64,000 nucleotides of DNA, from NCBI GenBank assembly GCA_015501605.1, contig JADNRZ010000008.1:1550001-1614000 (forward strand), in the 5' to 3' direction. Shown one piece after another: positions 36,556 through 62,548 of this stretch (positions within the stretch are counted from its first letter, which is position 1; the number at the start of each line of letters is the position of its first letter). The notes under the pieces are model-generated. The model was not told the origin of the DNA and did no database searches. It saw only the letters and a program-made list of their open reading frames with translations. This stretch comes from Panaeolus papilionaceus (lineage: Eukaryota > Basidiomycota > Agaricomycetes > Agaricales). Position numbers and translations under genes: made by a program.

Positions 36556-36612
36556 GTTAGGAGTGATGTGAACGAGTGACCACAATGACCTCTCATAGTT
36601 CCAGAGGTGGGG

Positions 36613-41975: not shown

Positions 41976-44472
41976 ATGACAACCCCCGCTCGTTCAGCTT
42001 ATCGTGGCCTACGGCGAAAGCTAGTTCTAGCCTTTGATGTTGGTACAACTTACAGTGGGATCTCATACAGGTATTTATCGCAAAATTCATGTTGACCTTG
42101 GGCGCTTCTTTGATATCGTGTTCAACAGTATCCTGGATCCTGGCATCGTACCAGAAATCAAGCCTGTAACACAGTTAGTATTGGCTTTGGAAGAGTGCAA
42201 TGAGATGCTAACGCGCTTTTGCATAGATTTCCTGCCCAGGAGTACATCAGTGGAGCATCCAAGATTCCAACAGTTATCTACTATGATCAGTCTGGCAAGG
42301 TGCGGGCGGTTGGAGCAGAGGCAATGAGAGAGGGAATTTACGAGATAGCTGAGGACCAACAATGGATCAAAGCAGAATGGTGAGCACTGGGCAGCTCACC
42401 AACGCGTCAATGACCGTATTGATACTTGTCTATGTACAGGTTCAAACTACACCTTCGTTCCAAGGTTGGAGCAGGCCGCACTGTCACAAACGAAATTCCT
42501 CCCTTGCCTCTCAACAAAACTGTCAACGAAGTCTTCGCCGACTTCTTGCGTTACCTTCTGGAATGCGCGTCCTCGTATATCCAAAGCACTCATGCCAATG
42601 GCGCAGACCTCTGGTCATCTGTGAAAAATCAGATCGATTTCGTGCTTTCTCATCCAAACGGATGGGAGGGTACGCAGCAGAGTGAGATGCGTAAGGCAGC
42701 TGTTTTGGCTGGATTAATACCGGACAATGTGAACGGGCATTCTCGTCTTTCCTTCGTCACTGAAGGAGAGGCTAGTTTGCACTTCTCCATCCAAAACGGA
42801 CTTCCTTCGGGCGCCATGAAGGTGGGTAGCATAATTTTATTGTGCTTTGTGGCCTAGGACGGATGCTAAAGTGTGCAGAATGGGGACGGTGTTGTCATTG
42901 TCGATGCTGGTGGAGGTACTATCGATATCAGTTCGTACAGCAAGAGTACGGGTGCTGGCAAGGATACTTTCGAAGAAATTGCTGCTCCTCAATGTACGTT
43001 TCAGAGTTGCACTGTTTTCATTATCATGCTGACGTATACTTGAAGGTCATTTCCATGGATCAGTCTTTGTCAGTATTCACGCACGTCTATACTTGGAGCG
43101 TATGTTTCATTTTCGTTGAAGCTGTGTCCATTTCGATTTTTGTTGATGTCTTGTACAGAATACCTCGCAGAATCCAAGTTCATTGATGATCTCGACCACA
43201 TTGTCAGGCAATTTGATAAATCGACAAAACTTCGTTTCAGAAATGATACTGAGCAGCAATACATTCAATTCGGGTCGTCAAGAGATAACGAAGCCGCTTA
43301 CAACATTCGATTTGGTCAACTCAAGTTACAAGGGTACGTCGTTTTTATTGTCTGTCCCAGGGATACTACTCACTTTATCGAACAGAACTGATGTTTCCGC
43401 GTTCTTCGAGCCTTCAATCGACTGTATCAAAAAGGCTGTAGTCGAGCAAAGCAAGACGTCTCACAAACCCATTTCTGTAGGCAATTTTGTTTTATGAAGG
43501 TCTCTCTGCCCCACATCTAAACGTCGTTTACCATTGATTCATTCAGCATGTCGTGCTTGTTGGTGGCTTCTCCGCAAACGACTGGTTATACGAGAAGGTT
43601 CAAACCGCACTCACCCCTCTTGGGCTCAATATTCTCCGCCCAGAAAGTCATGTGTAAGGCACCTTTTAATTCGTTGTGGTCCCCGTTGACCCTGATGCTA
43701 TTTTTAAACTTTTGTATTGACTCCATGGCTTTTTCACAGTAACAAAGCCGTCTCTGACGGAGCCATTTCCTTCTACCTCGACCACTTCGTTCGTACTCGT
43801 GTTTCCAAGCTCACATATGGAAACTTCTGCCACATCCCATTCGATCCAAATGCTCCAGACCATCAGCAGCGAGTCAGCAAGACCTTCATTTCTGTGTCTG
43901 GGAACAAGCGAATCAGCGATTCGTTCGACATCATTCTACCGAAGGTGCGTCATTTTTAATGATACCAGAATCAGGTGTTGAGCTGTATTTTTCAGAACAC
44001 ACAAGTATCAGAGACGAAGGAGTTCCGCAAGTCGTATTTCAGGGAGTCAGAGTCGAAGTCTGAGTTTAGGAGCGCGTCGTTCTCTGTTTGGTGTTACAGA
44101 GGAACAGTGGCTGAGCCAAAATGGAAGGATGTCGATACCAGTACGTCCAATTCACAACCCGTTTGTGCTGCAGATTTCTGATCTACAATAACAGAGAACT
44201 ACACCAAGCTGTGCACGATCGAAGTGGACTTGTCACATCTTCCTTTGCAGCCCCGAACCAAGCCAAGTGGGGGCGGAAGCTACTACCGATTGGACTACGA
44301 AATTGTGCTGTTGTTCGGTTTGACAGAGTTGAAAGCACTCGTTTCATGGAAGGAAAATGTAAGCCCCCTCATTTCATGTCCTTCGTCGCGATCTTGACCT
44401 ATTCGGCAGGGAGCGGAAAAGCGAAGCGTTACCAAAATTGTTTATGATCCCGATACCACCAATGATGGATAG
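41976..44472 (+). CDS. HL-1: Hsp70/actin-fold ATPase, HSPA12-like
   Basis: A gene with about a dozen exons. Residues 16-31 are the phosphate-1 motif LVLAFDVGTTYSGISY. Next come ILDPGIVPEIKPVTQ, the conserved VFADFLRYLLECASSYI and LSHPNGWEGTQQSEMRKAAV (an HSPA12 hallmark), SFVTEGEASLHFSI, phosphate-2 VVIVDAGGGTIDISSY, HFHGSVFVSIHARLYLE, adenosine motif VVLVGGFSANDWLY and NKAVSDGAISFYLDHFVRTR. There is no canonical Hsp70 substrate-binding domain or EEVD tail. After the ATPase comes a small beta-rich region (LDYEIVLLFGLTELKALVSW) ending IVYDPDTTNDG. It is the most divergent of the four and lacks the extra 3' intron and 14-nt exon of HL-2 to HL-4. It is followed head-to-tail by CC-3. Confidence 0.85.
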
Positions 44473-44910
44473 GCAGTTTCTTGAACTCGTTGTATCTTGC
44501 AGTCCGGTTTTGTATACCAGTTTTGATTTCTTGTATGTAGTTGTCATCTGAATCCCGTATTTCGTATAATAACATTCTTCTGATGTCCCCCGCCTGCCGA
44601 CGCATGTTGATATCATTACCTCTTACCTACAAAGATAAGAGCAGATTCATCATGCGTCAAGAAGGTCCCTGAAACACTGGCTAATCTACTTAGTCCAGTG
44701 CATGCGTCCTGCACGATAAGGAGTCAAGTCTGATATACTACGTACTGAAACCACAGAAGGCCAAACACGCACGGAACACGTTGATCGGGCACGAGGTCGT
44801 GTAGCTGCGAAGTCGCGTTGCCCAACATACAACTATGTTGTTGTATATCACCTAGACCCAATCGCTTCTTCTACCTTCTCCATAATCACCACCCCCAACG
44901 ATCTACAGCT
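44473..44910. other. HL-1/CC-3 intergenic region
   Basis: About 440 bp between genes on the same strand, holding the CC-3 promoter. No coding content is recognised. A frame from 44818 runs into CC-3 but adds a non-conserved leader. Confidence 0.45.
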
Positions 44911-46725
44911 ATGCCAGCTTTCAAAATAGACAGCATGCGCAAACTCTTCGAGAAGAAACCAAAACAGAATAGACAACTCATGACACCGAGCACGACGCCT
45001 GGAGGCACGATCCAGTCGGAGTTGGAATCCAGGTCACCTATTGGACCGCCCACCGAGCAGAAAAATGGTGCGGGTTCGGTCAAGCAGAAGAAGGGACTCC
45101 GGATGCCGAAGAAGTTGTTCGAGTCGCTGACCCGAAAGAAGCCAAAACACGACGCGATCCCAGAGCGACCAAGCGCGGAGGTGTTTCCCGTGTCTCCACA
45201 CGAACATAAGGATCTCCCTTCTATTCCACATGCTCAAGTCCTGGATATTGCACCAACTCCTATTCCCATACCAACTTCCAGTTCTGCCCCTATTCCCGTT
45301 CCCGCCCCCGCCCCCATCTCAGTCTCAATAACTGAACCGAGCATCCCCATTATCGCACCTCCCAAAGCCGCGGTTCCGATTATTGCTGAACCTGTGCCTC
45401 GTACGCCAGAAAAAAGTCCTATATCCCCTACAAACAGGCCCAATGTCGCTGAATGGATAGCTGAGAAGAGAAGAATGGAGGTGGAAATCAAGCAATTGAC
45501 GGGGCGAATCGCAGCAGATCAGGAGAACTTGGTAGCGATGCAACGTGCGCAAGATAGAGAGAAGGCAGCCTCCAAAGGACTCCAAGTGCAAGCTCAGTCC
45601 CTCAAGCAGTCGCAGGACGCCGCGACTCAAAACGCTCGTGTTTTGGAGACTCGTTGTCGAGAGTTACAGGACAAAATACAGCGCATGGAGCTAAACATGA
45701 GGGAGAAGGCCAGAGCAGCAGAGGAAAACCAGGTGCAATTGCAGGCGTTGCTTGATGTGCGGACGAACGAACTTAAAGGGGCGCAATCCTTCTTGACGAT
45801 GGTGGATACGTATTCGGGAGCTGATGTGGTGAAGATGGTGGAAGTGCTGAATGCAGAAATTTTTCAGACGTCGGCGTACATGTCAGAGTTGGTGGAGGAG
45901 GTTCTACCAGACGAAGCCGTGCGGGTTAGATGGGAGGACTGTCTTACACCAGAGGCGTTGGCAGGAGTTCGTGCTGAGGTTGGCGAAGAACTTGTAGCCT
46001 TCATTGGTAGGAAGGGTCCAGAGATCCGTGATGATACACTTCCCCTTCAAATCGCGATTCAGTCCATTTTGGTGTGGTGGTCGGCGTATATGATCAATGG
46101 GTTCTGTGACGGAATACCTGGAGAGCAGATGATGAATTTGTATGAAAATATCAGAAGGACAGGTTTGTGCTCACCTTACTGCCACGATGAGAACATTAAT
46201 GACGTATCAAATTGATATATAGAACCGCAGGCAGTGTCGGCCAGATGGAGGGCGATTACAACAAAACAATTAGCTGGCACCGCTAGGTCGTTAAATAACG
46301 ACGTTATTCTTCGCATCCTGATAGGACTGTTGAAGATGGGAGGTTGGTCCGCAGATCTCCAGACATCTGCTAAGAGCACCACGGCTATTCAAGAATCCAT
46401 TTCCATCATCGAGAAGGCCTGGAAAGACATCCGAGTAGCCGCCAAAGAAGGTGTGATATCCTGCGACATCGAGCTCGTATACAGCAAACCGGGTTTACGA
46501 TTTGATTCCGAGTACATGGAGGATTCCTATGTCGATGGCGAAACCGCAACATTAGACTCCGACTCGCCAGATGACACAGTTCTGTGCACTGTAGCACTTG
46601 GGCTTAAAAGGTCGACAGCTAAACCTTCGCCCTCTGGACTGAATGAATTCCAAGAAGACCTCTTGGTAAAGCCCAAAGTAGTTCTTTCTTCTTTGTTGTT
46701 GCAGCTTGAGGATTTTAGTCACTAG
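44911..46725 (+). CDS. CC-3: coiled-coil family protein, 584 aa
   Basis: Exons 44911-46162 and 46223-46725, with a 60-nt intron at the conserved place (RRT/EPQAVSARWR). The N-terminus is basic and amphipathic (FKIDSMRKLFEKKPKQNR), then Lys-rich (KQKKGLRMPKKLFESLTRKK) and a repetitive Pro/Ile stretch (IAPTPIPIPTSSSAPIPVP). A coiled coil spans residues about 200-290. The family signature follows: LLDVRTNELKGAQSFLTMVD, SGADVVKMVEVLNAEIFQTS and PLQIAIQSILVWWSAYM. The distal part has ILIGLLKMGGW, VISCDIELVYSKPG, VLCTVALGLKRS and LLVKPKVVLSSL. I start at 44911, not the in-frame ATG at 44818, because other members begin with a similar short amphipathic leader. It is paired head-to-tail with HL-1. 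Confidence 0.85.
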
Positions 46726-47306
46726 AACACCTAAAATTTACATAGCAGGCAAGGCGCTATTTTGCTACGACCCGTCAAAAGACCTGGGGATTTAACTATA
46801 ATTTTAGTGTATTTATAGAAATATTTATACCATTACTCACTCTAATTTTCCGGCTTGATATTGAGGTCAAGCGATACGACGAAGATATGATTGCCATTGA
46901 ACGTTGTTGCAGGGTGGTGGTGGTCAGCATGGAACACCTGTGTGACCAACTTGGATATTGTGACATTGCCCCTTTCCCTTCTCCCATCATGCACACCAGA
47001 GCATGACAGCTGGAACCTTCGACAACATCATTTAAATTTAAATAAATATGGTGCAAAAGAGCTGCTAGAAACATGAATTCGCGCCAGAAGTGACTACAGT
47101 GAATACAGGACGTTGGGGGAATCAGAAGGATTGAACATCACGAATGGATCATTTTACTGATTTTTTTTATCATTAGGAATCGTGTCAGTGGTCATGAAGG
47201 AAAACAGTGCATTATTCATAAAGGTAAGAATATTCGTTTTGTATATAAAATGCGTCGCAAACATCTAGTAATTCACTGACTCTACGGATAGGCGTACTAT
47301 GTGTAC
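46726..47306. other. Convergent intergenic region CC-3/CC-4
   Basis: About 580 bp between two converging CC genes. AT-rich, no gene recognised. Confidence 0.5.
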
Positions 47307-49031
47307 TTAATCACCCATATTGAATGCGATACTAGCAAGAGCTACCTTGTTCTTGAGAAGAATCTCATCTCGAGAGTGGTATCGGCCACTATCAGTCGAC
47401 ATATTGGTGGCCTTTGCCAACCCAAGACCTAGGGAACAGAGAATCTCTTGCCCTATGAGGTCCCTCGACTGTACCCTCCTTCCATTCGGATAGTTATTCT
47501 CCATGGACACTTGAGTGAAGCTGTCGCCTGGAGAACTTGCTATCAGCCGCATATCACAGGACATGATGTACTCCCCAATAGCGACCTTGATCTTGGTCGC
47601 AAGCGTCTCGATTTCTCCAAGGGAATTGTTGACGGCGGAGATACCTTCGGAATCGAACCTCGACCATCCACCCATTTTCAGAAGACCAAGAATTGCCTGG
47701 AAGAGGTCTCGTTTAGCGTTAGGTGTCGACAACGCCCTCTTTGCCACATTATTCGATGTCATCACCCTCCACCTGGCAGCGACCACCTGCGTTTCTGGAA
47801 AGTTTCGCGTCAGACACCTCATGACATCCAGAGAAGAAAAAGAGCTACCTGTTTCCTTGATTTGGTTGTACAACACATGCAATTGCTTCTCCCCACCGAA
47901 TACATCAACGAGGCACAAGGACCATTGGACGAGACAGGCTTGCAAAGCGAGTTGGAGTGGGAGTGTATCATCACACATACGGAGGCCTCTCGTCGCGATG
48001 ATGGACATCAACCTGTCACCAATGACGCTAGCAAGTGGTTCAATCGCATCCGTTGGCAAACACTCTTCCCATCCACAGCTGTACGCTCCTTTTGGAGGTC
48101 GGGAGCTCTCCACAAGATCAGCAAGGCAGGCTGCAGTCTGAAAAATCTCAGTGTTCAATGCTTCCACCATCTTCTTGACGTCGTATCCGGAGTATTTGTC
48201 GGTTAGAGTGAGGAATGCCTGGGCGTGATTCAAATCTTTGGTCCGGACGTCCAACAGCTCTTGCAACTGTATCTGCTGTTTTTGGGCTACGCTTTGCTGT
48301 TCCACCATCCTTTGCTTCAGGTGTTGGGACATGTTCTGGAGTTCCTTGTTCTGTGACTTTAGGCGCTGATTCTGGTCATCTAACCTCTCGAATGCTTTCT
48401 GGTACGTCTCGCGATTACGCCACTCCCTTTCCAGCTCCCTCATGCTGTCGTTGTTGCTTCTCCAGGCAATGTCCTTTTCGGTGGTCAACTTAGCGAGCTG
48501 CTTCCTCGTCTCGCATGCCCTTTCCTCTAGCTTGCGAATCTTGGCCCCTAAATCCCGACCCTTGGCCTCTGATGCCGCCTTTTCCTTCCTTAGAGTGGCT
48601 AATTGCCCATGTGGCTTTGTCGATTTCCTCTTCTCAGGGGATGTCTCTCCGCCTTCCGGTGTGACTTCCTCGTCAACAGGTGTCGCTGGTTGGGGGTCTT
48701 GCGCGGGTTGCTGCTCTGCAGGAGTCGGAATTCGTGGAATCGATTCAGCGGATTGGTGTGCCACTGAAAGGTCATCAAAGGACTCGCAAGAAGACGTCAT
48801 AGGCTGGTCAATGGCGACTACATCGATATCACTGAAAGAGTCCTGGTCGGTAGAGGATGTGGAGGGTCGTGTATCGTCGCCAAGTGGTTGCTTGTGTGGA
48901 GGAGCTTTCCTCAAGACGGGATTCTTTGTACCAGATTGACTGACAGGAATCGACTCCTTGGATCGCGTTATACGACCTGAGCCGCCTGAAGTGGGGTTGA
49001 AAAAGGAGACAACTCCTTTGATAGCCTGCAT
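47307..49031 (-). CDS. CC-4: coiled-coil family protein, 556 aa spliced
   Basis: Start at 49031 (MQAIKGVVSFFNPTSGG). A frame opening at 49160 adds a leader unlike its relatives. Residues 1-130 are disordered with an acidic Ser/Asp patch (SSTDQDSFSDIDVVAIDQP). The coiled coil covers about 140-265, followed by LLDVRTKDLNHAQAFLTLTD, SGYDVKKMVEALNTEIFQTA and PLQLALQACLVQWSLCL. The distal domain has ILGLLKMGGW, IMSCDMRLIASSPG, ILCSLGLGLAKA and ILLKNKVALASIAF. The family intron is present at 47795-47848 (GTAGCT...TTTCCAG) but is 54 nt long with no stop, so an unspliced transcript would encode 18 extra residues. It is head-to-head with HL-2. Confidence 0.85.
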   Translation of the reverse strand: MQAIKGVVSFFNPTSGGSGRITRSKESIPVSQSGTKNPVLRKAPPHKQPLGDDTRPSTSSTDQDSFSDIDVVAIDQPMTSSCESFDDLSVAHQSAESIPRIPTPAEQQPAQDPQPATPVDEEVTPEGGETSPEKRKSTKPHGQLATLRKEKAASEAKGRDLGAKIRKLEERACETRKQLAKLTTEKDIAWRSNNDSMRELEREWRNRETYQKAFERLDDQNQRLKSQNKELQNMSQHLKQRMVEQQSVAQKQQIQLQELLDVRTKDLNHAQAFLTLTDKYSGYDVKKMVEALNTEIFQTAACLADLVESSRPPKGAYSCGWEECLPTDAIEPLASVIGDRLMSIIATRGLRMCDDTLPLQLALQACLVQWSLCLVDVFGGEKQLHVLYNQIKETGSSFSSLDVMRCLTRNFPETQVVAARWRVMTSNNVAKRALSTPNAKRDLFQAILGLLKMGGWSRFDSEGISAVNNSLGEIETLATKIKVAIGEYIMSCDMRLIASSPGDSFTQVSMENNYPNGRRVQSRDLIGQEILCSLGLGLAKATNMSTDSGRYHSRDEILLKNKVALASIAFNMGD

Positions 49032-49315
49032 TTGACAGTGAAGTAGGGGGTTATGTGGTGGACGTTGGAGGAAAGGATTGTGGCTAGGTCCTGTGGTCGT
49101 TTCGTTGTGAATATAGGTTTCTTGATGACAAAGGACCTTTGTCCCCAAGAGTGCAAACACACTTTACCGACACCTCGACAATGCTTATCGCCTCCCTTTG
49201 TTGTTATCTGGTGAGATATAAAAACCAATTTGTCGTTTTAATTGTCGTTCATCTTTTTACCGGTTTCCTAATCCTCAACGACATATCAACACAGTTTTAT
49301 CCTCTATTACCCACC
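49032..49315. promoter_or_regulatory. Divergent promoter CC-4/HL-2
   Basis: A 284-bp interval between opposite start codons. A TATA-like ATATAAAA lies at 49217-49224 on the HL-2 side. The ACGCGT element found in the other two divergent promoters is not present here. Confidence 0.6.
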
Positions 49316-51904
49316 ATGTCAGAGTCCATTTTTACTAGAAAGCCCTACAGTGGCACCAAACGTAAACTTGTCCTCGCCTTCGATGTTGGAACCACGTTTA
49401 GTGGAATATCATACGCGTTGGTTCACTTTCTCTGGTGCTGTGCCCGTACATAGATGTTCTAACATCCGCCACTCTCATCCAGAATCTTAGACCCCGGCAA
49501 GGTTCCTGAAATTCGAGGCGTCACACAGTGCGACCCCTTTATGTTCTCATATGCCATTGTTGAATATTAACTTTTTTTAAGATTCCCTGCTCAAGAAAAC
49601 GTTGGCGGAGATTGCAAGATTCCAACCTTGCTTTACTATGACGCGAAAGGCGATGTACGGGCAGCTGGTGCTGAAGCTAGGGACGAGGCCATCGAAGAAA
49701 TGGCCCAAGAAGAGGGTTGGACCAAAGCAAAATGGTAAATCCTGGGCGCGATTCTTTCAGGCTTACCAGGGCATTCAACTGATTACAATCCAGGTTCAAA
49801 CTTCACCTCGGTGCAAAGACGGCAGCCAACGCCCACGTCACCTCAAATATCCCCCCACTTCCTCAAGGAAAAACTCCCATCAGGCCTCTTTTCTGACTTC
49901 TTGCGCTACCTTCGTGACTGTGCTCGTTCTTTCATCGAAGAAAGGCACGCAAATGGAGTGGCTCTTTGGAGCTCTTTGGTTGACGAGGCTGATTATGTCC
50001 TCACTCATCCAAATGGTTGGGAGGGTGGACAGCAGCAGATGATGAGGCAGGCTGCTATCAAAGCAGGCCTTGTTACCAACGACCCCAAGGGGCGATCCCG
50101 TGTTTCGTTCTTGACCGAAGGTGAAGCCAGTCTTCACTTTTGCATACAGAGTGAGATGACGACGGACGCGATCAAGGTACTTGCTTTTAAACTGTGTGTC
50201 TCTGTTCAAGGACTTATCCTTTTTGTTGAGGACGGCAAAGGCATTTTGGTCGTTGACGCGGGAGGAGGAACCATTGACATCAGCGCTTACCGATATGTGA
50301 AAGATACGGGTTATGAAGAAGCAGCTGTCCCTCAATGTGAGTATTCTCTGTCACTTTATTGATATCTCAAACTCATTGCTGTGTATCAGGCCACGTTCAG
50401 GGGTCAGTTATTGTTACTTCCCGTGCAGAAGCGTTTCTTGAGGGTGAGCCACCACCACTTTCTTTTACCTTTTTAACAGGCTAATGTAAATATTCAGATT
50501 ACCTCAAAGACTCCAAATTCTCGGGTGAAGCGAAGTACATTGCAGAATCTTTTGATAAAACGACGAAGCCTGTATTCAGGAACGTCGAGGATTGGCAGTT
50601 CATCAAATTTGGCTCTCCCAACGACCGTGAGGACGACCTTAACATAAAGCGAGGCCAACTCAAACTGCCAGGGTACGTCAGATTTTTGTTTATGCTTTAA
50701 ACTTCTGACTTTATTGTCTAGGACGACAGTGGCGGAGTTCTTCCAACCATCTGTGGATTGTATCATTAACTCTGTCGAGGAGCAGATGAAGACGGCTCCC
50801 GATATTAAGGTGAGTGTAGTGCTTTTGTACTTCTCTATTTTGCTGATCGTATATAATTCATAGTCTATTTTTCTAGTTGGAGGATTTGCTGCGAACAGCT
50901 ATCTCTTTAAGAAGATCAGGGATAAATTCTCTCCCGCTGGTGTTGATGTTTCTCGACCTGACCCGAACAGAGTGTTAGTATTACACTGATTTTTTCCCAG
51001 TTGATCGTCGTACTGATTCAGCTTTAGGAACAAAGCAGTGGCGGAAGGCGCTGCTTCCTTCCATTTGCACCACTTTGTCTCTTCCAGGATGGCAAGATTT
51101 GATTATGGGGCATTCCTCAATGAGCACTTTGATGCTACAGTCCCTGCCCATCAACTCCGTCGCCGTACCGCCTTTGTGAATTGCATTGGGCAGGCGATGC
51201 TTCCGGATTGGTTCAGCAACATATTGACCAAGGTATGTTGATTTAAGTTTCTGGTCTTGATCTGGTCTAAATTGCGAGCATTAAGGGTACCAAAGTGGCA
51301 GAAACCCAGGAATTTAGACAGCCCTTTTGTGTGACCTCCTTGTCGAAAGATAATCTTAAGAAGGTTCAGACACGTATCGTTCATTATCGCGGTCTAGTTA
51401 AAGGAATTGAGTGGCGGGACGAAGACCCTGGTAGGTTATATGACCTGCGACTCGAAACGAGGTCTGCTCACTGTCTGCCTGCATCGACGGGTCCTAGATA
51501 TGTTTCACACTTTGTGCTATGTTGAAGCAGATACATCGACATTGAGCGAAACTCTGGAACTCGAGGAGGAGGCTGTGGGCCACTCAACAGTTGAATGCTA
51601 CAGACTAGACTGTGACATTGTATTGACTCTGGGTACCACAGAATTTAAAGCTCATATCGCCTGGAAGGAGAACGTACGTGTCACAATGTACTCTTTTCCT
51701 CTCTTACTCTAATTTTCTCATCCTTTGTACTCCTTATAACGATAGGGCATCGAGAAAACGTGAGTATGAAACACGAGATCTGATCCAAAAATTCGCTCTG
51801 ACTTCATTTTCTTTTCCTCCAGAGGTCCCGCAGAGATAATTTACGATGTCGACCCTGACGACTGCGAAGAATATGATGATGATGATGGCAGCGATATGGA
51901 TTGA
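49316..51904 (+). CDS. HL-2: Hsp70/actin-fold ATPase, HSPA12-like
   Basis: ATG 49316, stop 51904, about 13 exons. Phosphate-1 KLVLAFDVGTTFSGISYA has its Asp at residue 23. It is followed by ILDPGKVPEIRGVTQ, FPAQENVGGDCKIPTLLYYD, FFKLH-like strand, LFSDFLRYLRDCARSFIEER, LTHPNGWEGGQQQMMRQAAI, SFLTEGEASLHFCIQSEMTT, phosphate-2 ILVVDAGGGTIDISAYRYV, HVQGSVIVTSRAEAFLE, NVEDWQFIKFGSPNDREDDL, VGGFAANSYLFKKIRDKFSP and NKAVAEGAASFHLHHFVSSR. There is no Hsp70 substrate-binding domain. The C-terminus is acidic, IIYDVDPDDCEEYDDDDGSD. A 14-nt exon (51746-51759) encodes GIEK plus two bases. It is expected to bind and hydrolyse ATP in the cytosol. The partner candidate is the divergently transcribed CC-4. 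Confidence 0.87.
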
Positions 51905-52143
51905 TTTTAAGGGGGGTTTTGAGGACGCAAGCAGATGGCTAGACTAGACACATAACAAGATAGGCTTCAAGTCTAATTCCGCGTTATATTGGCATTTTAG
52001 TTTTTATCAATAATATCGCTTTCTTTCACGAGTGCATGTACCCTCGTCGCTAATTCCATTATATTCGTATGAGAGCATATTTATTATTAGGGGTGATTAG
52101 TACATAAAAGCGATCAGAACAATTTGAAGCAAGCACAAGAAAA

Positions 52144-53963
52144 TTACTCTATCATCTTGACATCCTCGTCCGGAATATCCGAAGAGCGCAGGGCAGAAAC
52201 GAGAACGACCTCAGGCTTGAGAAGAAGTTGCTGTGCTACTTTGTATGTTCCGCCTTCACTTGGTTCAGCCTTCGATTTCTTCAACCCAAGCCCCACCGTA
52301 CACAACGTCATTTCCTGAGGCCCTTTCCGTTTGGACGCAGCGGTACGCCCGCAATTGTCTTCGCTATTGGTCATGAAGGAGGGGTCGAAGAGGACAGGCT
52401 CTTGATATATCACTAAGTCGAGGTCGCAAGATATTATTCCCTGCTTGATTGCGATTTTAATTTCCATGGATAGTTTGTGGATGGTCGACAAGGAATCTTC
52501 AATGCGGCTTACGGCTTCTTTATCCTGGAGATCTGCATACCAGCCTGCCATTGCGAGCAGACCCAGCACGGCGGCTCGTACGTAGGTTTTTGGGGGCTTG
52601 TCGAAGAACGTCTGGAGCTTCTGAGAAGTGATCGCCCTCCATTTGGCCGAAACAGCTTGTGTCTCTAAAATTACGGGTAGTTAGGAATAAACCCAAGGGC
52701 AGCCGAAAAAGTTGGGCACTCACCAGATGTTCTAATATTTTTATACAGAAATTTAAGAACACCCCCGGCTTCTCCACCACACAACAGGCTGACATTATAT
52801 TCTGCCCAACCCGCGAGAAGCGCTTGAAGACCTATTTGTAGGGGGAAAGTGTTTTGACGTATTGTTGGTCCCTTTTGCTGGAGAAAAGATACGAGATCAG
52901 GACCAAGATTGAGTTCGACAAACTCCCGGGCATTGGTTTCAGGAAAGCATGCCTCCCAAGCAAGACACTCTGACTGCTCTTTGGGTAGGTCTTCGACTAA
53001 GTCTGCCATGTAGGCCGATGCCTGGTTTATCTCGGCGTTGAGGTGCTGCACCATACTAATTACGTCTGAGCCTGAGCATGAGTCGGTCGTAGTCAAAAAC
53101 TGCTGCGCGGCGCTTAATTCCTTTGTCCTGACTTCCAACAAAGCATCGCGCTCTTTCGAAGTGCGAATGTTCTCGTCCTCTGCGGCCTCCATACGAGAGA
53201 TACGTTTCTCCAGTTTCCTGTGGTAGACGTCAGCCTGTTCAATCTCGCGCCTTTGCTTTGCGTAATTAGCTTCGGCCCTCTGCAACCGGTCTTTGAGATC
53301 TCGTTCCACAGAACCCATGGAATTGATGTATCGTTGTAATTGCTCGACCTCTTTCTTGAGCTCTTCATTTTCAGTCTTTAATCTTCGAATTTCGTCGTCG
53401 CTGCTTTCTACGATGACTGGAGGGGAATCAGAAGATGATTTTGCTGCGTTTTCACCTGTTGAAATATCCATAGCACGCTCCCTGGGGGGTAACTTTCTCG
53501 TCTGTCGTGGTGGACCAAACCGGGGGTTGTCATTTGAACCCATGGCGCTCGCTCCTTTAATTCGAAGACCTTCCTCTGAAACTGCGTCAGTTATATATGC
53601 TCGCAGACGAGCATTAGCAGTTAAAATACCTTGACCATTGACATGAGAATCCACTCTGAAAGTAAATCCAGAAGAGGTGTATTGCTTGACTCGCTTGGGT
53701 GGCAAATCGTTGGAGCCCTTGTACTTTTCCCGTCTTTCAAAATGAATATTTTTGTCTTCATCCCCTCGCGATTCACCTTTTTTCGGTTGGTTCATCGCAG
53801 TTAAACCGGGCTTTTCAAGGATTTCGAAATCCGAATCAACTTCCGAGTCAGGCACAGTGGTTGCATCTCTGGAGTGTCGTGTTTTCCCCATCTCAGAATT
53901 CTGAGCTGGCGTAGATTCTGAATGAACTTGACGCATTGCACCCTGGAAGAGGCTTTCCAACAT
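52144..53963 (-). CDS. CC-5: coiled-coil family protein, 586 aa
   Basis: Exons 53963-52724 and 52664-52144, with a 59-nt intron (GTGAGT...TTTTAG) at the conserved position (RTS/ETQAVSAKWR). The amphipathic start MLESLFQGAMRQVHSE is followed by a disordered region with DSEVDSDFEILEKPG, a possible SUMO-interacting-type acidic/hydrophobic patch, then PPKRVKQYTSSGFTFRVDS. The coiled coil spans about residues 190-280. Signature: LLEVRTKELSAAQQFLTTTD, SGSDVISMVQHLNAEINQAS and PLQIGLQALLAGWAEYNVSL. Distal part: VLGLLAMAGWYADLQDKEAV, IISCDLDLVIYQEPVLFDPS, TLCTVGLGLKKSK, LLKPEVVLVSALRSS and DEDVKMIE. Head-to-head with HL-3, and closest to CC-6 by eye. Confidence 0.87.
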
Positions 53964-54173
53964 CGGTCTCTGATGAAAGCAGGAGGTAAGCTCTGACGCG
54001 TCGAACGTCCCAGGCGTGACATTTACGCACTAATTAGAGCATCACGGAACTACGCAGTGGTTGATGTTTGCCTCTCTCCACCACCAGCATCGCGAAAGAA
54101 AAGGCTAATTCACAACACTTCGCATTGTCTCTTCCTTTTAAGCTGTCCTCGTAAATAATACTCTAACTTGGTA
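53964..54173. promoter_or_regulatory. Divergent promoter CC-5/HL-3
   Basis: A 210-bp interval. It contains ACGCGT at 53996-54001 followed by GAACGTCC, and TTTACGCACTAATTAGAGC from 54022. Related words occur in the CC-6/HL-4 promoter, which suggests shared control of the pairs. ACGCGT is the core recognised by MBF-type factors in yeasts; use here is inference. Confidence 0.6.
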
Positions 54174-56743
54174 ATGTTGGCGACACCCTCAGCAAGGCCA
54201 CCTTTTAAAGGGAAAAAGCGCAAATTGGTAATCGCATTTGACGTCGGAACAACATATAGTGGGATATCATACGCGTTAGTCATTTTTTATAATGTCGAAA
54301 GGCCGTTCTAATCGATTTTTCTTCTTCCTGGATAGTATTTTGGATCCAGGACACGTCCCCGAGATTCGAGGTGTCACACAGTAAGACTCTTCCTGAAACC
54401 CCTGCATAAAAGATTTTTTTTACAATCTTTGCAACCAGATTCCCGGGCCAGGAAAACGTCGGAGGAGACTGCAAAATACCGTCAATTCTCTACTATGATA
54501 GCGCAGGGATTATGAAAGCCGCAGGCGCTGAGGCGAGAGACGAGGGCATTGAAGAACAGGCAGCGGACGAAGGATGGTTTAAAGCCGAATGGTAAGAATC
54601 TTGACACCATAATAAACAGAACAGATAGCAATTTTGACTCAATGCCCCTCCAGGTTCAAACTCCATTTACGGCCGAAGACCAAAGCGACGGCCCATTTGA
54701 ATGGGAAAATCCCTCCGCTTCCTCCTGGCAAAACTGCCATCACAGTTTTCGCGGATTTCCTTCGTTATTTACACAAATGTGCACGGTCTTATATTGAAGA
54801 ACGCCACTCCAACGGGGACGAAATTTGGCGAACCTTGAGGCCAGACGCTCACTACGTCCTTACACATCCCAACGGGTGGGAAGGTGCCCAACAAAGTCAG
54901 ATGAGACAGGCAGCCGTTCTCGCCGGTCTAATCAAGGACAGCAGGTCTGGAAATGCTCGTTTGACCTTCCTAAGTGAAGGAGAAGCAAGTTTGCATTTTT
55001 GTGTCGGTACTGATCTCACTACAGATTCTATCAAGGTAATTTGCGCTGTCTTCGTTTGCGTTATTAACCTGTCCGCTCATGCCGGTATATCACAGGGAGG
55101 GAAAGGCATCCTCATCGTAGATGCTGGGGGTGGAACGATTGATATCAGCGCATATAAATATGTTCCAGATTCTGGTTATGAAGAAACGGCGGTTCCCCAA
55201 TGTAAGGGTTTCCTTTCAAACCAATACGATTGTCTTTATAATTGTCTTAGGTCATCTTCAAGGATCTATCACAGTAACAACGCGAGCAGAAGCATTCCTC
55301 AAATGTAAGGAGTCATCCTTCAAATATAAGTATGAATATATAACGTTTCACTGACCTTATTTTAGCTCTCCTTAAGGGATCCAAATTCTCGGAAGATGTA
55401 AAGCATATCGCAGAAACCTTCGACAAATCCACGAAACACGTCTTTAGAAATATCAAAGATTGGCAATATATCAAGTTTGGATCACCCAGTGACCGTGACG
55501 AAAGTCGCAACATCCGTCGTGGTCAACTTAAGCTAACAGGGTAAGTCCTGTTAGCCCCTATTTTGCCTTCGCGACCTTAATTAATTGTTTCTCACGCATT
55601 AGCGCTGAAGTTGCTGACTTCTTTACTCCTTCCGTCGAATGCATTATCAAGGCCATTAAACAACAGCGGAACACAACATCTGCGGATATTAAGGTGGGTT
55701 CAACATCAGATGTAATACAGGCCTTGCTCTCATACCATCTCACGTAGTCTGTCTTCCTTGTTGGCGGATTTGCAGCCAATACGTATCTCTTCAACGAGGT
55801 AAAAGAGAAGTTTTCTTCCAAAGGCCTGTATGTATCTCGACCTGACCCCAATCGAGTGTGAGTGTTCGATCTTTGTGTCCGCATGTTTCTAAATTGAAGA
55901 CACTTTAGTAATAAAGCGGTGGCAGATGGTGCTATCTCATTTTATCTTGGTGGCATTGTTGCCGCTAGGATGGCAAAATTTGATTATGGAACTGAAATGT
56001 CAGTGCCGTACAAAGCCACCGATTCGGCACATCAGAGTCGTGCCCGCAATGTCTATGTTGATTGTCTTGGAGTACCAAAACTTCCTGGTCGATTTGATAA
56101 GATTTTAGCAAAGGTGTGTGCATACTCTTGCGCGCCCATATCTTGATGACTATTGCTCAATTTCGTGGCTCAGGGGGTAAAGGTAACAGAAACAGAGCAT
56201 TTTAGACGTAGTTACTGTCAAATATCTTTGTCAAAGGCGAGTCTAGCAAAGATCAGCATACCAATTACCTGTTATCGGGGAAAGATAAAGGATGTGGCAT
56301 GGTTTGATGAAGACCCAGGTGAATATCAACGTTCAAATGCTCCTACATTTCTTTCTTATCACCGACGCTCCATTAGATATTTTTCATACACTCTGCCACG
56401 TCGAAGCAGATTTCAAACACCCCGAGTCCCGTATCCGTGGCGAGGGTGAAGACGCGATAAAATATTATCAAGCCGACTTCGATGTTGTCTTGACTTTTGG
56501 AAAAACGGAACTTGCGGCTCACATAGAATGGGAAGAAAAGGTAATTGATCCCTCTACACCGTCGTACATTCACTGTGTTGATTTTTTTCCTTTATTAATT
56601 ATTGGATATTTAGGGAGCCAAGAAATCGTGCGTAGCAACTTTTCATAAGGGTCCGATTCTCGACGCTGATTATATTTTGTCACAGGAGTCCGGCATCCCT
56701 TGTTTATGATTTGGATGCTGATGTACCTTCCTCTGCGTATTAA
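54174..56743 (+). CDS. HL-3: Hsp70/actin-fold ATPase, HSPA12-like
   Basis: ATG 54174, stop 56743, about 13 exons. Phosphate-1 KLVIAFDVGTTYSGISYA (Asp 23). Then ILDPGHVPEIRGVTQ, FPGQENVGGDCKIPSILYYD, VFADFLRYLHKCARSYIEER, LTHPNGWEGAQQSQMRQAAV, TFLSEGEASLHFCVGTDLTT, phosphate-2 ILIVDAGGGTIDISAYKYV, HLQGSITVTTRAEAFLK, KDWQYIKFGSPSDRDESRNI, SVFLVGGFAANTYLFNEVKE, NKAVADGAISFYLGGIVAAR and ADFDVVLTFGKTELAAHIEW. A 14-nt exon at 56614-56627 encodes GAKK plus two bases. The tail is SLVYDLDADVPSSAY. All ATPase motifs are intact. It is close to HL-4 along its whole length, indicating a tandem duplication of the CC/HL pair. No localisation signal is visible. Confidence 0.88.
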
Positions 56744-57874
56744 TCATGGCTACATTTCTACTAGTAGATTCTTCTCCAACGACGCTTCGTTGATTACTTT
56801 ACTTACTAATAACGCACTCCCGTATTGACTCTTTAATGCCGCGCCGGTGATTGCTCGAACACTGTTTTGGACGCTTTAACATTCACCAATTGCACGGTAT
56901 TTACGCTCTTAGCCCTCGTGTCGTTGATTGCATATTTTAAGTACTTGATCTTAATACTACTAAAAGCTTCCACTATGCAAACAGATATCAAGAGGCATGA
57001 GGACAATATATTACACGTCACGATACGTGCACAGCAACAATGAAACGAACTTTTGGTCTCGAGGCATCAATGCATCAACGGTCATTAGAAGCGTTGGACG
57101 GTTCGATTCCCAACGACAACTCATGAGCACCCAACGCAGACACCAAAACAGCCTCCAGGTTCAAAATGACTTTATCATTTGTTTTAAATTTTCCATTTCT
57201 CCTCCGCGTTGTTTTATCCTTGTTTTCTTCAGCCCCAGGTGCCACCGTGCACGGTATCTCGTCTGCAACGGCATCGAAATCTCACTTGCAGAGCCGGTCC
57301 TGAGTGGGATAGACAAGGGCTCACCATAATGCAATTTAGCGCCACAATTTACGAGAGGGAGCGCACTTGGTGACTATTCTATTACCTTGTGCGCTGCTGA
57401 ATCCTCAGGTGCAATTATCGATGTGTACGTAATAGGGGTAGAACGCGACGCGTTGTGATTATTTGTTTGTCTCAGGTCTGGATCACCGAAATCCCCGAGC
57501 CCCTATTTCGGTCACCAATGAGTGCAAGTCCCTCTCCACCTTGCCTCCACGCCACCGGCTTGACTTCTCTGAGTTAGCTGTATAAAATATGTCCTCTATA
57601 AAAAAGAAAACATTGAAATATGCATTGCATGGTTGTGCAGCTACAGTTGATTCATAGCTCACGAAGCCCCAACACGGCCTAAGCACCACCAGTTCGAACA
57701 TGAAAGTCTCGCTACACCACCTTAAATATCGTCGATGGTGTCCAAAAAAACATGATTTAATATTGAAGTCAAAGTCATGATGAGTATAAATTCGTTCTTT
57801 GTAAGTATGATATCGTGGAAAGGTGAGGTTACTTAGGGATAAGAGGGTGCAATTGAAAGGCGGAAGCAGTCGGT
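56744..57874. other. Convergent intergenic region HL-3/CC-6
   Basis: About 1.1 kb without a recognised gene. It holds CGCGACGCGTTGTGATT at 57444-57460, which recurs downstream of HL-4. A GGTTCGATTCC word at 57100-57110 resembles a tRNA B box but no tRNA can be folded around it. Confidence 0.5.
57444..57460 (+). repeat. Repeated 17-bp word downstream of HL-3
   Basis: CGCGACGCGTTGTGATT is identical to the word at 62795-62811 beyond HL-4. Its first ten bases also occur in the CC-6/HL-4 promoter at 59708-59717. Confidence 0.7.
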
Positions 57875-59692
57875 TCACTCTTCCATCTTGACATCCTCGT
57901 CGTCTACGTCTCCCGAAGTATGCAAGGAGGAAGCGAGGACGACCTCGGGTTTCAAAAGCATCTGCTGGACGATGTCGTATTTCCCTGGGTTCTTTTCACT
58001 TTGCACAGCAGTGGACTTTTTTAACCCTAGTGCCACCGTGCACAATGTTTTTCCTGTTGATGCTGATGCTTTGCTGCCATTGTTTCCGCTGTCGGTCATG
58101 GTCAAAGGGTCGAATTCGACGGGGCGGGAGACGGTGGCAATGTCAAGATCGCAAGAGACGATGCCCTGCTTAATGGCGACCTTGACTTCCATTGCAAGCT
58201 TGTGGATCGTCACCAACGATTCTCCTACGAAAGCGACAGTTTCTTGATCCTCGGGACTCCAGCCAGCCATTGCTAGAAGACCAATGAGGGTGGGTTGTAT
58301 GAGATTCCCCATATTCTTTTCAAGTGTCGGATGGAACTTATGGGAGGTGATAGCTCTCCACTTCGCAGAAACGGCCTGGGTCTCTGAACATTTCCAAATC
58401 GCTATTTAGTGCAAATTTCTATCGGAAAGAGGGAGACTTGCTTACCCGTTTGCCTGATGCGCTGGTATAAACTATCGAAAGCGTTCCTGACGGATGTCTC
58501 TCCAGCGTAGAAACGACTGATATTAAAATGAACCCATCTGACAAGAGTGGTTTGGATGGCTGTTTGAAGTAGAAAGGTGTCCTTGCGAATCGCGGTTCCC
58601 CTTTGCTTCAGGTATGTCAAGATATCTTCACCAATCGTGAGTGAGGCGGAATGCCTCAGTTCTTGAGGCATAGCTTTCTCCCAAGGCAAGCACTTCACGT
58701 TCTCTTCCTGGAGGTCTTCGATAAGGTCTGCCATGAAGGCTGACATCTGCATGATCTCGGCATTGAGTCGTTCCACCATGTTGATCACGTCCGACCCAGA
58801 GCACGTATCGGTCATAGTAAGGAACGCCTGGGCGGCATTCAGCTCCTTTGTTCGGACGTCCAACAGCGCATCTCTTTCTCCGCAGGTGCGCATATGAACA
58901 TTTGCCTCGCCTTTTATTTGCTCAAGCTGCGATTCGATACTTGCACAATACTTTTCACACTGACTGAATTCCTTCTTCGTCTTCTCATGTTGCGTCTCGG
59001 CACGTTCCAGTCGGCTCCTTAGCTCTTGTTCCATGGCCTGAAAAGCACGACGTTGTTGATCGAGCTCCGCTTTGAGAAGCTTATTTTCGTCCTGTAACTT
59101 GTGATATGCGTCGGCGTCTTGGTCGGTATACATGTCGTGTTGGGGCATAGTGCGAGAATCCCTGGAATAGCGGTCCTCGTCCCTGTAGGACTCGCGACGT
59201 TCCCAATCCGGTAATTTTCTCATTTCGCGAGGAGGATAATGGCGGTCGTGTCGGTCACGGTCATTTCTAGGTGGTGGGGAGCGGTAACGTTCCTTTGACT
59301 CCCTTTCATTGGTGTATCCTGGTGAAGGTTATGAACAAATCTTTACACGATAATTAGCCAAAGTTAGTGTGTTGAATAAACCTACCTCGACCCGCATAAC
59401 GACGTTCAAACTCATTGGAAGACCTATGCTTGTGCCGCTTGGAGTGCGAACTGGTCGAACCTTCGCGTTTTTCTCGGAGCTCATACCGCGAGCTATCCTT
59501 AGAGTCAGACTGTCGGTATCGCGATTTTTCGTCTGGCCTTTCAATTTGAATGATATCCAACTCGTCGGAGTCAGATGATGGTATTGCCTCTGTGTCTGTG
59601 ATGGGCACTGTGTCTTCCATTTTCTGAGACTTCTGAGAAGGCATAGAGTCGGGAAGAACGTGGCGCACGGCGGCAAAAACAGAGTTGAACAT
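57875..59692 (-). CDS. CC-6: coiled-coil family protein, 562 aa
   Basis: Three exons: 59692-59386, 59318-58446 and 58383-57875. Phases agree. The start at 59692 gives an amphipathic leader, MFNSVFAAVRHVLPD. The N-terminal part is highly charged, with SSDSDELDIIQIERPDEKSR, and Arg/Asp/Tyr-rich (RNDRDRHDRHYPPREMRKLP). The coiled coil is about residues 195-280. Signature: LLDVRTKELNAAQAFLTMTD, SGSDVINMVERLNAEIMQMS and LLQTAIQTTLVRWVHFNISR. Intron 2 is at the family site (RQT/ETQAVSAKWR). Distal part: LIGLLAMAGWSPEDQETVAF, IVSCDLDIATVSRPVEFDPL, TLCTVALGLKKST, LLKPEVVLASSLHTS and DEDVKMEE. It has an extra 5' intron (59319-59385) relative to CC-3 to CC-5. Head-to-head with HL-4. Confidence 0.87.
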
Positions 59693-59938
59693 TGAATGTC
59701 TGTGAGTCGCGACGCGTAACGTCAAGGTCCTTTGAGGTGAGAAAGGGAGAAGGATTTCTTAATGCAGAACTGTGATATTATTAATTAGTGCATGACAGGG
59801 TCGAATGCGGCTTAAATTGAAACCGCTAACTTGCCACTGGCGGGTTCTGGTTCTAACCTCTCCTACCTCTAAGCAAAATTTTACGCATTAATTTTCATTG
59901 TAACCTTGTACAACATTCCATAAACGCAAAGAAAAATT
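59693..59938. promoter_or_regulatory. Divergent promoter CC-6/HL-4
   Basis: A 246-bp interval with CGCGACGCGT at 59708-59717 followed by AACGTC, TTAATTAGTGCATGAC at 59781-59796 and TTTACGCATTAATT at 59880-59893. All three have counterparts in the CC-5/HL-3 promoter. Confidence 0.6.
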
Positions 59939-62548
59939 ATGGCTGCCACTGCATCAAAGGCGCCTTACTCTGGGAAGACGCGCAAGCTGGTCATCGCGTT
60001 CGATGTTGGGACAACATTTAGTGGAATATCCTACGCGTAAATTTTCCTGCATTTGGGGCTCGAGGAAACACGGTTTTAACTTTTAACTGTGCCTTTTTTA
60101 TATGATTTATCCTTTGGTAGTATTTTAGATCCAGGACGCGTTCCAGAAATTCGGGGAGTAACTCAGTAAGAAGCTTTGCCAGCGTCTTTCATGAAAGACT
60201 TTTTTTTCTTAAAAAATGCAGGTTTCCAGGGCAGGAAAACGTCGGTGGAGATTGTAAAATTCCTACTCTCTTGTATTATGACAATCTTGGAACCCTGAAA
60301 GCGGCGGGTGCCGAGGCGAAAGACGAAGCTATAGAAGAGCGTGCTGATGAAGAGGGCTGGTTCAAAGCAGAGTGGTGAGTGAAGTGTTTTCAACGGTAAA
60401 AAAAAAAGGTAATAAATTCTGACCAACGCAACAGGTTCAAGCTTCACCTAAGACCCAAGACATCAAGTACAGCCCATATCACGGGGAAAATCCCTGCTCT
60501 TCCACCAGGGAAAACCTCTATCGTGCTCTTCGCCGACTTCTTACGTTATTTGTATAAATGTGCCCGCTCCTATATCGAGGAACGTCATGCTAACGGGGCG
60601 GAAATATGGCGTTCGCTTCAGGCAGACTCTCACTTCGTCCTCACTCACCCCAATGGATGGGAAGGTGCTCAACAGAGCCAAATGAGACATGCAGCTATTC
60701 TGGCGGGCCTGATTAAGGATGACGCTGCAGGACACTCTCGTATTTCCTTCTTAAGTGAAGGTGAAGCAAGTCTCCATTTCTGTGTGCGCAGCGATTTGAC
60801 AACAGAGTCGATAAAGGTATTTAAAATTCTCACTTCATACATCTACCGCAGCTGACGCTATTTTTTCTCCTACAGGGTGGAAAGGGAATACTTATTGTCG
60901 ATGCAGGAGGCGGAACCATAGATATCAGTGCGTACAAGTACGTGCCTGGTGAAGGATACGAAGAAACCACGGTACCGCAATGTGCGTATTCATCCCGATT
61001 GATATCCACCTCCAACCAATGCTGGTCCTTTCTTCAGGTCATCTTCAAGGATCCATCATGGTCACCACTCGCGCAGAAGCCTATTTGAAGAGTAAGAAAT
61101 GATCGTGGTCGCAGAACCTTCTCTTCCTAACCATCTTTGCTACATAGCGTACCTCAAGGGTTCAAAATTCGCCGATGATGTCAAACATATTGCTCAATCG
61201 TTTGACAAGGCGACCAAGCACGTCTTCAGAAATATTAAAGATTGGCAATATATCAAATTCGGCTCTCCGAGTGACCGAGACGAAAGTCGTAATATTCGCC
61301 GTGGACAGCTCAAATTGACGGGGTATTTATTTTTTCGTCTTGGTTAAGCGAGCAGGAATGCTTATTTTTCACTCATCTAGTGCCGAGGTTTCAGACTTTT
61401 TTAAACCTTCTGTCGATTGCATCATTCAGGCTATCACGCAGCAAAAGAATACAGCTTCTGCAGACATTCGGGTGAGCTGACAGTGTCCATGGAACCATGC
61501 GACTGAAACTCATTTCTTGTCGCCACAGTCTGTCTTCCTTGTTGGGGGTTTCGCTGCCAACACATACTTGTTTAACGAAGTGAAAGACAAGTTTTCCTCA
61601 CAAGGCATTGACGTATCCAGACCCGATCCTAATCGAGTGTGAGTACCCACTTTTCTGATAGGCAATCAGACATGGGTTAAGCTCATCCATTTCCAGAAAT
61701 AAAGCCGTTGCAGACGGGGCAATATCATTTTATCTGGATAATTTCGTCACTAGTAGGATGGCAAAGTATCATTATGGAACGAGATGTCGGACATTGTACA
61801 AAGCTACCGACGCGGCTCATCGCAGTCGTGCAAATACCGTGAGCGTGGATTGCGTTGGCAGACCGCAGCTCCCAGGCTACTTTGATAAAATATTGTCCAA
61901 AGTAAGTTTTTACCAAACTGCCGTTCGACGTTGTTGGTCTTATGATTCATTCCTCTTTGTTACAAGGGTACCAAAGTAACAGAAGTAGAAGAATTCCGTT
62001 GTCCCTACCTCAACGATTCTTTGAATAAAGAATCACTAGCAGCTGTGAATACCACGATTTATTGTTATCGAGGAGGACTTAGAGATGTGGCATGGTTTGA
62101 CGAAGATCCAAGTGCGTTTGGTCCATATCTCTTCCCTCCTTGTTCCTAATGAGAAACATTCTGAAAAGATATGTTCCATTCCCTCTGCACCGTAAAGGCA
62201 GACGTAACGAATCTGGTTAAAGCCCTGAAGCCTATCACATATGAGGGCTCAGGAGACGGATCGTTGCAGTATTATGAAGTAAACTACGACATAGTCATAA
62301 CCTTTGGTAAAACTGAATTTTCGGCCCACGTCGAATGGATGGAAAAGGTACTTGTCTTTGGGATTCTTAACTCTCTGAATCATCGCTCACTGGTCACCTC
62401 TCTTTTGAAATTCTAGGGCGTCAAAAGATCGTGAGTACTCATTTTAGTTGAATCGTTGAGCGGGCTCTGAATCATTTTTAACACTGCCAGGAGCCCCGCA
62501 AAGCTAATTTACGACGCAGATGCAGCTATACCATCCGCCGCATATTAG
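59939..62548 (+). CDS. HL-4: Hsp70/actin-fold ATPase, HSPA12-like
   Basis: ATG 59939, stop 62548, about 13 exons laid out like HL-3. Phosphate-1 KLVIAFDVGTTFSGISYA (Asp 22). Then ILDPGRVPEIRGVTQ, FPGQENVGGDCKIPTLLYYD, LFADFLRYLYKCARSYIEER, LTHPNGWEGAQQSQMRHAAI, SFLSEGEASLHFCVRSDLTT, phosphate-2 ILIVDAGGGTIDISAYKYV, HLQGSIMVTTRAEAYLK, KDWQYIKFGSPSDRDESRNI, SVFLVGGFAANTYLFNEVKD, NKAVADGAISFYLDNFVTSR and VNYDIVITFGKTEFSAHVEW. The 14-nt exon is at 62417-62430 (GVKR plus two bases). The tail, LIYDADAAIPSAAY, resembles that of HL-3. No defect is visible. Function is unknown: ATP-driven remodelling of, or signalling through, the neighbouring CC-6 product is a hypothesis. Confidence 0.88.

Follow-up and report, generated by a model that had tools for sequence, protein, structure and literature searches.

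A 64,000-nucleotide stretch of the Panaeolus papilionaceus genome (contig JADNRZ010000008.1, positions 1,550,001 to 1,614,000; hereafter the window) carries genes for Hsp70-like ATPases (HL) standing next to genes for coiled-coil proteins (CC). Our analysis uncovered an old array of two-gene units that extends beyond the window and in which divergent HL and CC genes have been inherited together. On balance, we favor a model in which CC is a dedicated partner that would bind and stabilize an HL protein devoid of a helical lid, much as Zuo1 does for Ssz1. As a first-pass annotation of this DNA had proposed, the spliced gene models place four HL/CC couples (HL1/CC3, HL2/CC4, HL3/CC5 and HL4/CC6) between positions 41,976 and 62,548. 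Its description of their layout also holds: pairs 2, 3 and 4 (numbered after their HL gene) are divergent, with ATG-to-ATG gaps of 284, 210 and 246 bp, and HL1/CC3 is arranged head-to-tail.

Linkage, co-duplication and age of the HL/CC pairs

For the CC family the genome was searched with CC6, CC2 and two distant proteins, and for the HL family with HL4 and one distant protein. Compiling the matches gave at least 18 near-complete HL loci and at least 31 CC loci; these counts omit two HL fragments and a broken copy of CC2, and take two weak adjoining matches on C36 as two. A CC gene lies head-to-head within 1 kb at 9 of the 18 HL loci, namely HL2, HL3, HL4 and HLa to HLd in the main array, HLe about 32 kb beyond the main array on C70, and HLh on a separate contig, C2. 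Start-to-start gaps outside pairs 2 to 4 are 242 bp (pair a), 248 bp (h), 123 or 216 bp (b), 365–371 bp (d) and 445–571 bp (e), the CC start of pair c being assumed for counting. When the CC set was shifted jointly by at least 2 kb, 20,000 shifts gave a mean of 0.006 head-to-head pairs and a maximum of 2, against the 9 observed. With tiny shifts allowed, the mean was 0.005 and the maximum 9, and 468 local slides of CC gave at most 4 pairs, one of them the unslid C2 pair. The nine head-to-head pairs are therefore more than chance would produce.

The first-pass annotation had described the pairing as strict, and this claim fails family-wide. A neighbor of the other family within 1 kb was found at 10 of the 18 HL and 10 of the 31 CC loci, leaving 8 HL and 21 CC loci without one, and an array of CC genes at C70:1.066–1.176 Mb shows no HL matches; strict pairing was rejected on these grounds. 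That array (C70:1066729-1176958) holds about eleven more distant CC-family genes, mostly on one strand and without HL neighbor. Two further CC genes without HL are recognizable copies: CCm and CCa are 94.5% identical in DNA across 1,627 aligned bases, with 280 gap positions, and a looser alignment puts CCn at 79% identity to CCh. These copies indicate that CC can spread without its partner.

The two families nevertheless share a history where they are paired. An HL tree of 35 rows (15 from this genome, 5 from P. cyanescens and 15 others taken from 120 listed relatives) placed h, a, b, 2, c, 3, 4 and d in a single clade together with their counterparts from P. cyanescens, and HL1 fell outside it, with HLf and proteins of Psilocybe and Galerina. 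In the CC tree, the groupings were b, c, d, (5,6) and 3, (a, h), and CCn and CCo grouped with CCh. HL and CC distances were correlated across the nine divergent pairs (Mantel r 0.86, p 0.00015) and across eight of them without pair e (r 0.85, p 0.0001). With HL1/CC3 included, ten pairs gave r 0.63 (p 0.016), and when HL1/CC3 was added to the eight pairs without e, r fell from 0.85 to 0.21 (p 0.19). HL1/CC3 was therefore rejected as a fourth equal pair and represents an adjacency of a different kind; joint duplication of the two genes holds for the nine divergent pairs and not for this one.

Between HL3 and HL4 the proportion of synonymous differences (pS) was 0.80 and that of nonsynonymous differences (pN) 0.16; the last 350 residues of CC5 and CC6 gave 0.73 and 0.30. 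Synonymous sites were at or near saturation among the paralogues compared, so that the HL/CC linkage is old, and both genes of the pairs have been constrained.

Relatives of CC were found by database search in P. cyanescens, Phanerochaete sordida and Hymenopellis radicata, which makes the family older than Panaeolus. This spread is a lower bound, since the alignment search returned two proteins from the 7,988 top word-sharing candidates scored, a pool probably flooded by coiled-coil words. For HL4, at least 1,380 relatives were found (7,994 candidates scored), and among the 120 listed, all that carry names bear basidiomycete species names. Adjacency in other genomes could be followed in P. cyanescens through locus-tag numbers, on the assumption that tag order is gene order. 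The CC protein CVT24_006232 and the HL1 orthologue CVT24_006226 are six tag numbers apart and both on 117,563-bp contigs, a proximity that fits a conserved cluster; a second pair of tags there, taken up below, points the other way.

Predicted architecture of the HL and CC proteins

The phosphate-1, phosphate-2 and adenosine motifs are intact in HL1 to HL4, in agreement with the first-pass annotation. Of the 18 near-complete HL loci, 15 were modelled and aligned, and 14 of these models have all three motifs intact. The exception is HLf (C70:1704132-1706462), where all three are degenerate and which is probably a decaying gene. HL1 and HL4 score 12.7 bits against Pfam HSP70, below the gathering cut-off of 20.6, and HL3 gave no HSP70 match at E 0.1. 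The predicted structure of HL4 aligns to ATP-state BiP over residues 13–596 (460 residues, covering the ATPase and the beta part of the substrate-binding domain, SBD-beta), and ATPase-only chains align over 338–352 residues among the matches listed. Residues 422 to 586 of the model are beta apart from short helices, and a helical lid is absent. HL is thus predicted to consist of an Hsp70 ATPase core followed by an SBD-beta-like sandwich, without the helical SBD-alpha lid. The earlier statement that HL proteins have no canonical substrate-binding domain is accordingly right for the lid, but an SBD-beta-like part is present in the predicted structure.

HL proteins share with canonical Hsp70s (DnaK, BiP) an ATPase core and SBD-beta that align with ATP-state BiP; unlike them, they lack the EEVD end and fall below the Pfam cut-off, and the HL4 model has no lid. 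UniProt or NCBI lists several of the close homologues as “Heat shock 70 kDa protein 12A/12B”, which points to a likeness to HSPA12A and HSPA12B, and HL is classed here as probably HSPA12-type. The Hsp70 ATPase motifs and fold, together with the sub-threshold Pfam scores, also recall these proteins, whereas its clustered expansion, closely coupled head-to-head to a coiled-coil gene, and the predicted SBD-beta-like domain set HL apart.

For the CC proteins, prediction gives an N-terminus that varies and is probably disordered, then a long coiled coil, then helices forming a bundle, and lastly a beta part that is weakly modelled. In the CC3 model these elements are a long helix at 182–296, helices at 303–494 and strands at 535–566, the beta part being of low confidence. 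No known family or fold was matched by CC in Pfam and Foldseek searches, the CC3 model matching none of the solved structures at an E value of 0.001 or lower.

Gene models and other features of the window

The spliced models (Table 1) were built by script and then corrected against paralogues. Those of HL1, HL3, HL4 and CC3 equal annotated P. papilionaceus proteins letter for letter, and that of HL3 was reproduced residue for residue by a second program with HL4 as guide. Exon 4 of HL2 (window 49794-50176) measures 383 nt versus 382 nt in HL1, HL3 and HL4, and as assembled this exon breaks the reading frame. Residues close to this break and to an in-frame stop in HLc (C70:1628900-1631366) are missing from the annotated models P0017 and P0012. 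Pairwise identity is 49–74% among HL proteins and 20–45% among the six CC proteins of the window. The assembly presumably derives from strain CIRM-BRFM 715, which is described as a decomposer of grassland litter and late dung with a published genome (PMC8480192).

Table 1. Features of the HL/CC array and related CC genes (window positions unless C70 or C2 is given)
Feature	Position	Strand	Description	Basis
HL1	41976..44472	+	HSPA12-type Hsp70-like ATPase, 597 aa, 13 exons	Spliced model; equals annotated P0094, BJ165DRAFT_1403442
CC3	44911..46725	+	Coiled-coil protein, 584 aa, 2 exons, head-to-tail behind HL1	Spliced model; equals annotated P0002, BJ165DRAFT_1403443
CC4	47307..49031	-	Coiled-coil protein, 574 aa, one exon, divergent partner of HL2	Spliced model
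CC4/HL2 common intergenic region	49032..49315		284 bp, putative bidirectional promoter	ATG-to-ATG gap
HL2	49316..51904	+	Hsp70-like ATPase, 14 exons, exon 4 frame broken as assembled	Spliced model
CC5	52144..53963	-	Coiled-coil protein, 586 aa, 2 exons, divergent partner of HL3	Spliced model
CC5/HL3 common intergenic region	53964..54173		210 bp, putative bidirectional promoter	ATG-to-ATG gap
HL3	54174..56743	+	Hsp70-like ATPase, 600 aa, 14 exons	Spliced model; equals annotated P0006
CC6	57875..59692	-	Coiled-coil protein, 562 aa, 3 exons, divergent partner of HL4	Spliced model
CC6/HL4 common intergenic region	59693..59938		246 bp, putative bidirectional promoter	ATG-to-ATG gap
HL4	59939..62548	+	Hsp70-like ATPase, 604 aa, 14 exons	Spliced model; equals annotated P0005, BJ165DRAFT_1527075; fold predicted
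CC1	12555..14939	+	Distant CC-family member, 775 aa, without HL neighbor	Spliced model, CC tree
CC2	16126..17543	+	CC-family member, 451 aa, hydrophobic stretch near N-terminus, without HL neighbor	Spliced model
CCm and CCn	C70:1643164-1644620 and C2:612228-613637		CC copies without HL	

A broken, partly inverted copy of CC2 lies at window 26833-28216; its minus-strand piece is 97% identical to CC2 residues 45–287, and the CC2 3' end is repeated alongside on the plus strand. Pfam scans also placed a stretch of a TCP-1/Cpn60-type chaperonin gene at 29523-30281 (E 2e-58), a GH62 family glycosyl hydrolase at 35599-36612 on the minus strand, and part of a GDSL-type esterase gene at 40071-40526 on the plus strand.

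A candidate two-protein module and its alternatives

The fact that the pairs were mostly copied and kept together suggests two proteins working as one machine. Mirrored distances and old linkage lend support to the co-function proposed by the first-pass annotation in the nine divergent pairs; HL1/CC3 receives no such support. HL and CC of each divergent unit are read outward from one intergenic region (210–284 bp in the three divergent pairs of the window), which may act as a common promoter. In the model that we favor, the coiled coil of CC would provide an oligomeric scaffold, and a segment of CC would form a complex with its own HL by binding the lidless SBD-beta and making it more stable, in the way of Zuo1 with Ssz1. 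The state of CC would thereby be coupled to ligand binding and to the ATP state of HL. The earlier idea that CC replaces a missing substrate-binding part has to be narrowed to the lid, since HL keeps an SBD-beta-like fold.

Ssz1 is described as lacking a lid but having a complete SBD-beta stabilized by Zuo1, whose N-terminus occupies the Ssz1 substrate-binding domain as a pseudo-substrate (PMC7083937). Ssz1, as described there, and HL, as predicted, are thus both lidless with an SBD-beta, and CC is the linked candidate partner; structures of the ribosome-associated complex (RAC) were among the Foldseek matches listed for the HL4 model. CC is not a J-protein like Zuo1, as the HPD motif is absent from 20 of 20 CC sequences, some partial, and the resemblance would therefore be one of principle and not of membership. 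No J domain was seen among the Pfam matches of the CC proteins scanned. Many parallel HL/CC pairs, moreover, stand against one conserved complex.

Several observations besides the missing HPD motif weigh against this model. The N-termini of CC are not consistently hydrophobic, and a Zuo1-like N-terminal peptide is therefore not evident. HL1/CC3 breaks the pairing rule, the unpaired HL and CC loci counted above have no partner at hand, and the positions of CC4 and CCe in the CC tree are weak. The HL2 frame break and the HLc stop affect HL genes that are themselves paired. In P. cyanescens, CVT24_003484 and CVT24_003485, the likely orthologues of HLc and HLd, are numbered consecutively, whereas CCc separates the two genes here. 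Finally, tandem duplication of one unit alone could give mirrored trees without any interaction.

This last point is the core of a rival explanation, passive hitchhiking, in which one chance HL/CC neighbor pair was copied repeatedly as a segment and the two proteins are functionally unrelated. Segmental copying alone would produce the mirrored trees, and CC has indeed also been copied without HL, as seen for CCm and for CCn and CCo. Saturated or near-saturated synonymous sites, however, indicate that the pairs have long been together with both genes constrained, and the head-to-head layout has been kept in nine pairs, one of them on another contig. HLe is moreover only 41–45% identical to the other nine HL proteins compared and yet is paired with CCe. 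We regard hitchhiking as rather unlikely.

Fungal NLR and heterokaryon-incompatibility loci are clustered, fast-turnover gene families expanded by birth and death, and HL/CC is likewise clustered with fast turnover. HL could then be a variable sensor or switch and CC a signaling or membrane-acting partner in a self/non-self or immune module. Besides the multigene array and the apparent lesions in HL2 and HLc, uneven divergence speaks for this reading: orthologues in P. cyanescens are 90% (HL1), 96% (HLh) and 87% (HLa) identical but only 68% (HLc) and 70% (HLd) in the inner array, and the one CC found there is 50% identical to CC5. The beta part is also less conserved than the ATPase core between HL4 and HL3 (56 vs 83%), HL2 (44 vs 70%), HLd (57 vs 77%), HLc (46 vs 74%), HLb (40 vs 71%) and HLa (39 vs 66%). 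Against P. cyanescens orthologues, the gap recurs in HLc (55%) and HLd (63%), both versus 73%; the corresponding values are 87 vs 91% for HL1, 98 vs 96% for HLh and 88 vs 87% for HLa.

The faster beta part is, however, not special to pairing, since paired HLa and HLh show no gap (68 vs 72%) and HL1 and HLh, of which HL1 is outside the paired clade, do (39 vs 62%); this pattern counts against our preferred model as well. It is suggestive only, because faster change at the C-terminus may be a general trait of distant Hsp70 relatives, and relaxed constraint would also give fast divergence. No NACHT/NB-ARC, HET or death-fold domain was present in the Pfam matches of 3 HL and 5 CC proteins (E 0.1) or of 21 CC-family rows (E 0.01), and no NLR or repeat domain among those of the HL/CC members scanned. 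An allorecognition or immune role would account for turnover and divergence, but we consider it improbable. The same low probability is given to its more specific form, a fungal recognition system whose fast-changing SBD-beta-like domain would read non-self peptides or proteins and whose ATP cycle would switch on its own coiled-coil signaling partner.

GrpE consists of a long coiled coil, a helical bundle and a small beta part, and the order of elements in the CC3 model is comparable. HL might thus be a stress chaperone and CC its nucleotide-exchange factor or co-chaperone; the low confidence of the CC3 beta part and the absence of any Foldseek match for CC3 at the threshold given above argue against this, as do the intergenic regions. 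None of the nine contains a three-unit heat-shock element, and heat-shock control of the pairs was rejected on this basis; pairs c and d each have a single two-unit TTCnnGAA. We consider a GrpE-like role very doubtful. A nine-base word resembling TCGATAAA, with up to one mismatch, is present in 7 of the 9 regions, but shuffles reached 6 and it is too weak to claim as a signal. A selfish poison-antidote pair, with HL as restraint and CC as poison, would suit compact, multi-copy, partly decaying two-gene units, but is scarcely credible for genes that are old and constrained and have no recognizable toxic domain in the Pfam matches of the members scanned.

Full-text literature searches, with most subscription journals outside their coverage, listed no report of HL/CC pairing. 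Part of the HL family comes with a built-in candidate partner, which can be tested pair by pair, with paralogues that have no partner serving as controls. Should HL and CC form complexes, as our preferred model would have it, they would offer a handle on the function of the HL family in fungi and, beside Ssz1-Zuo1, a second lidless Hsp70 completed by a dedicated partner.

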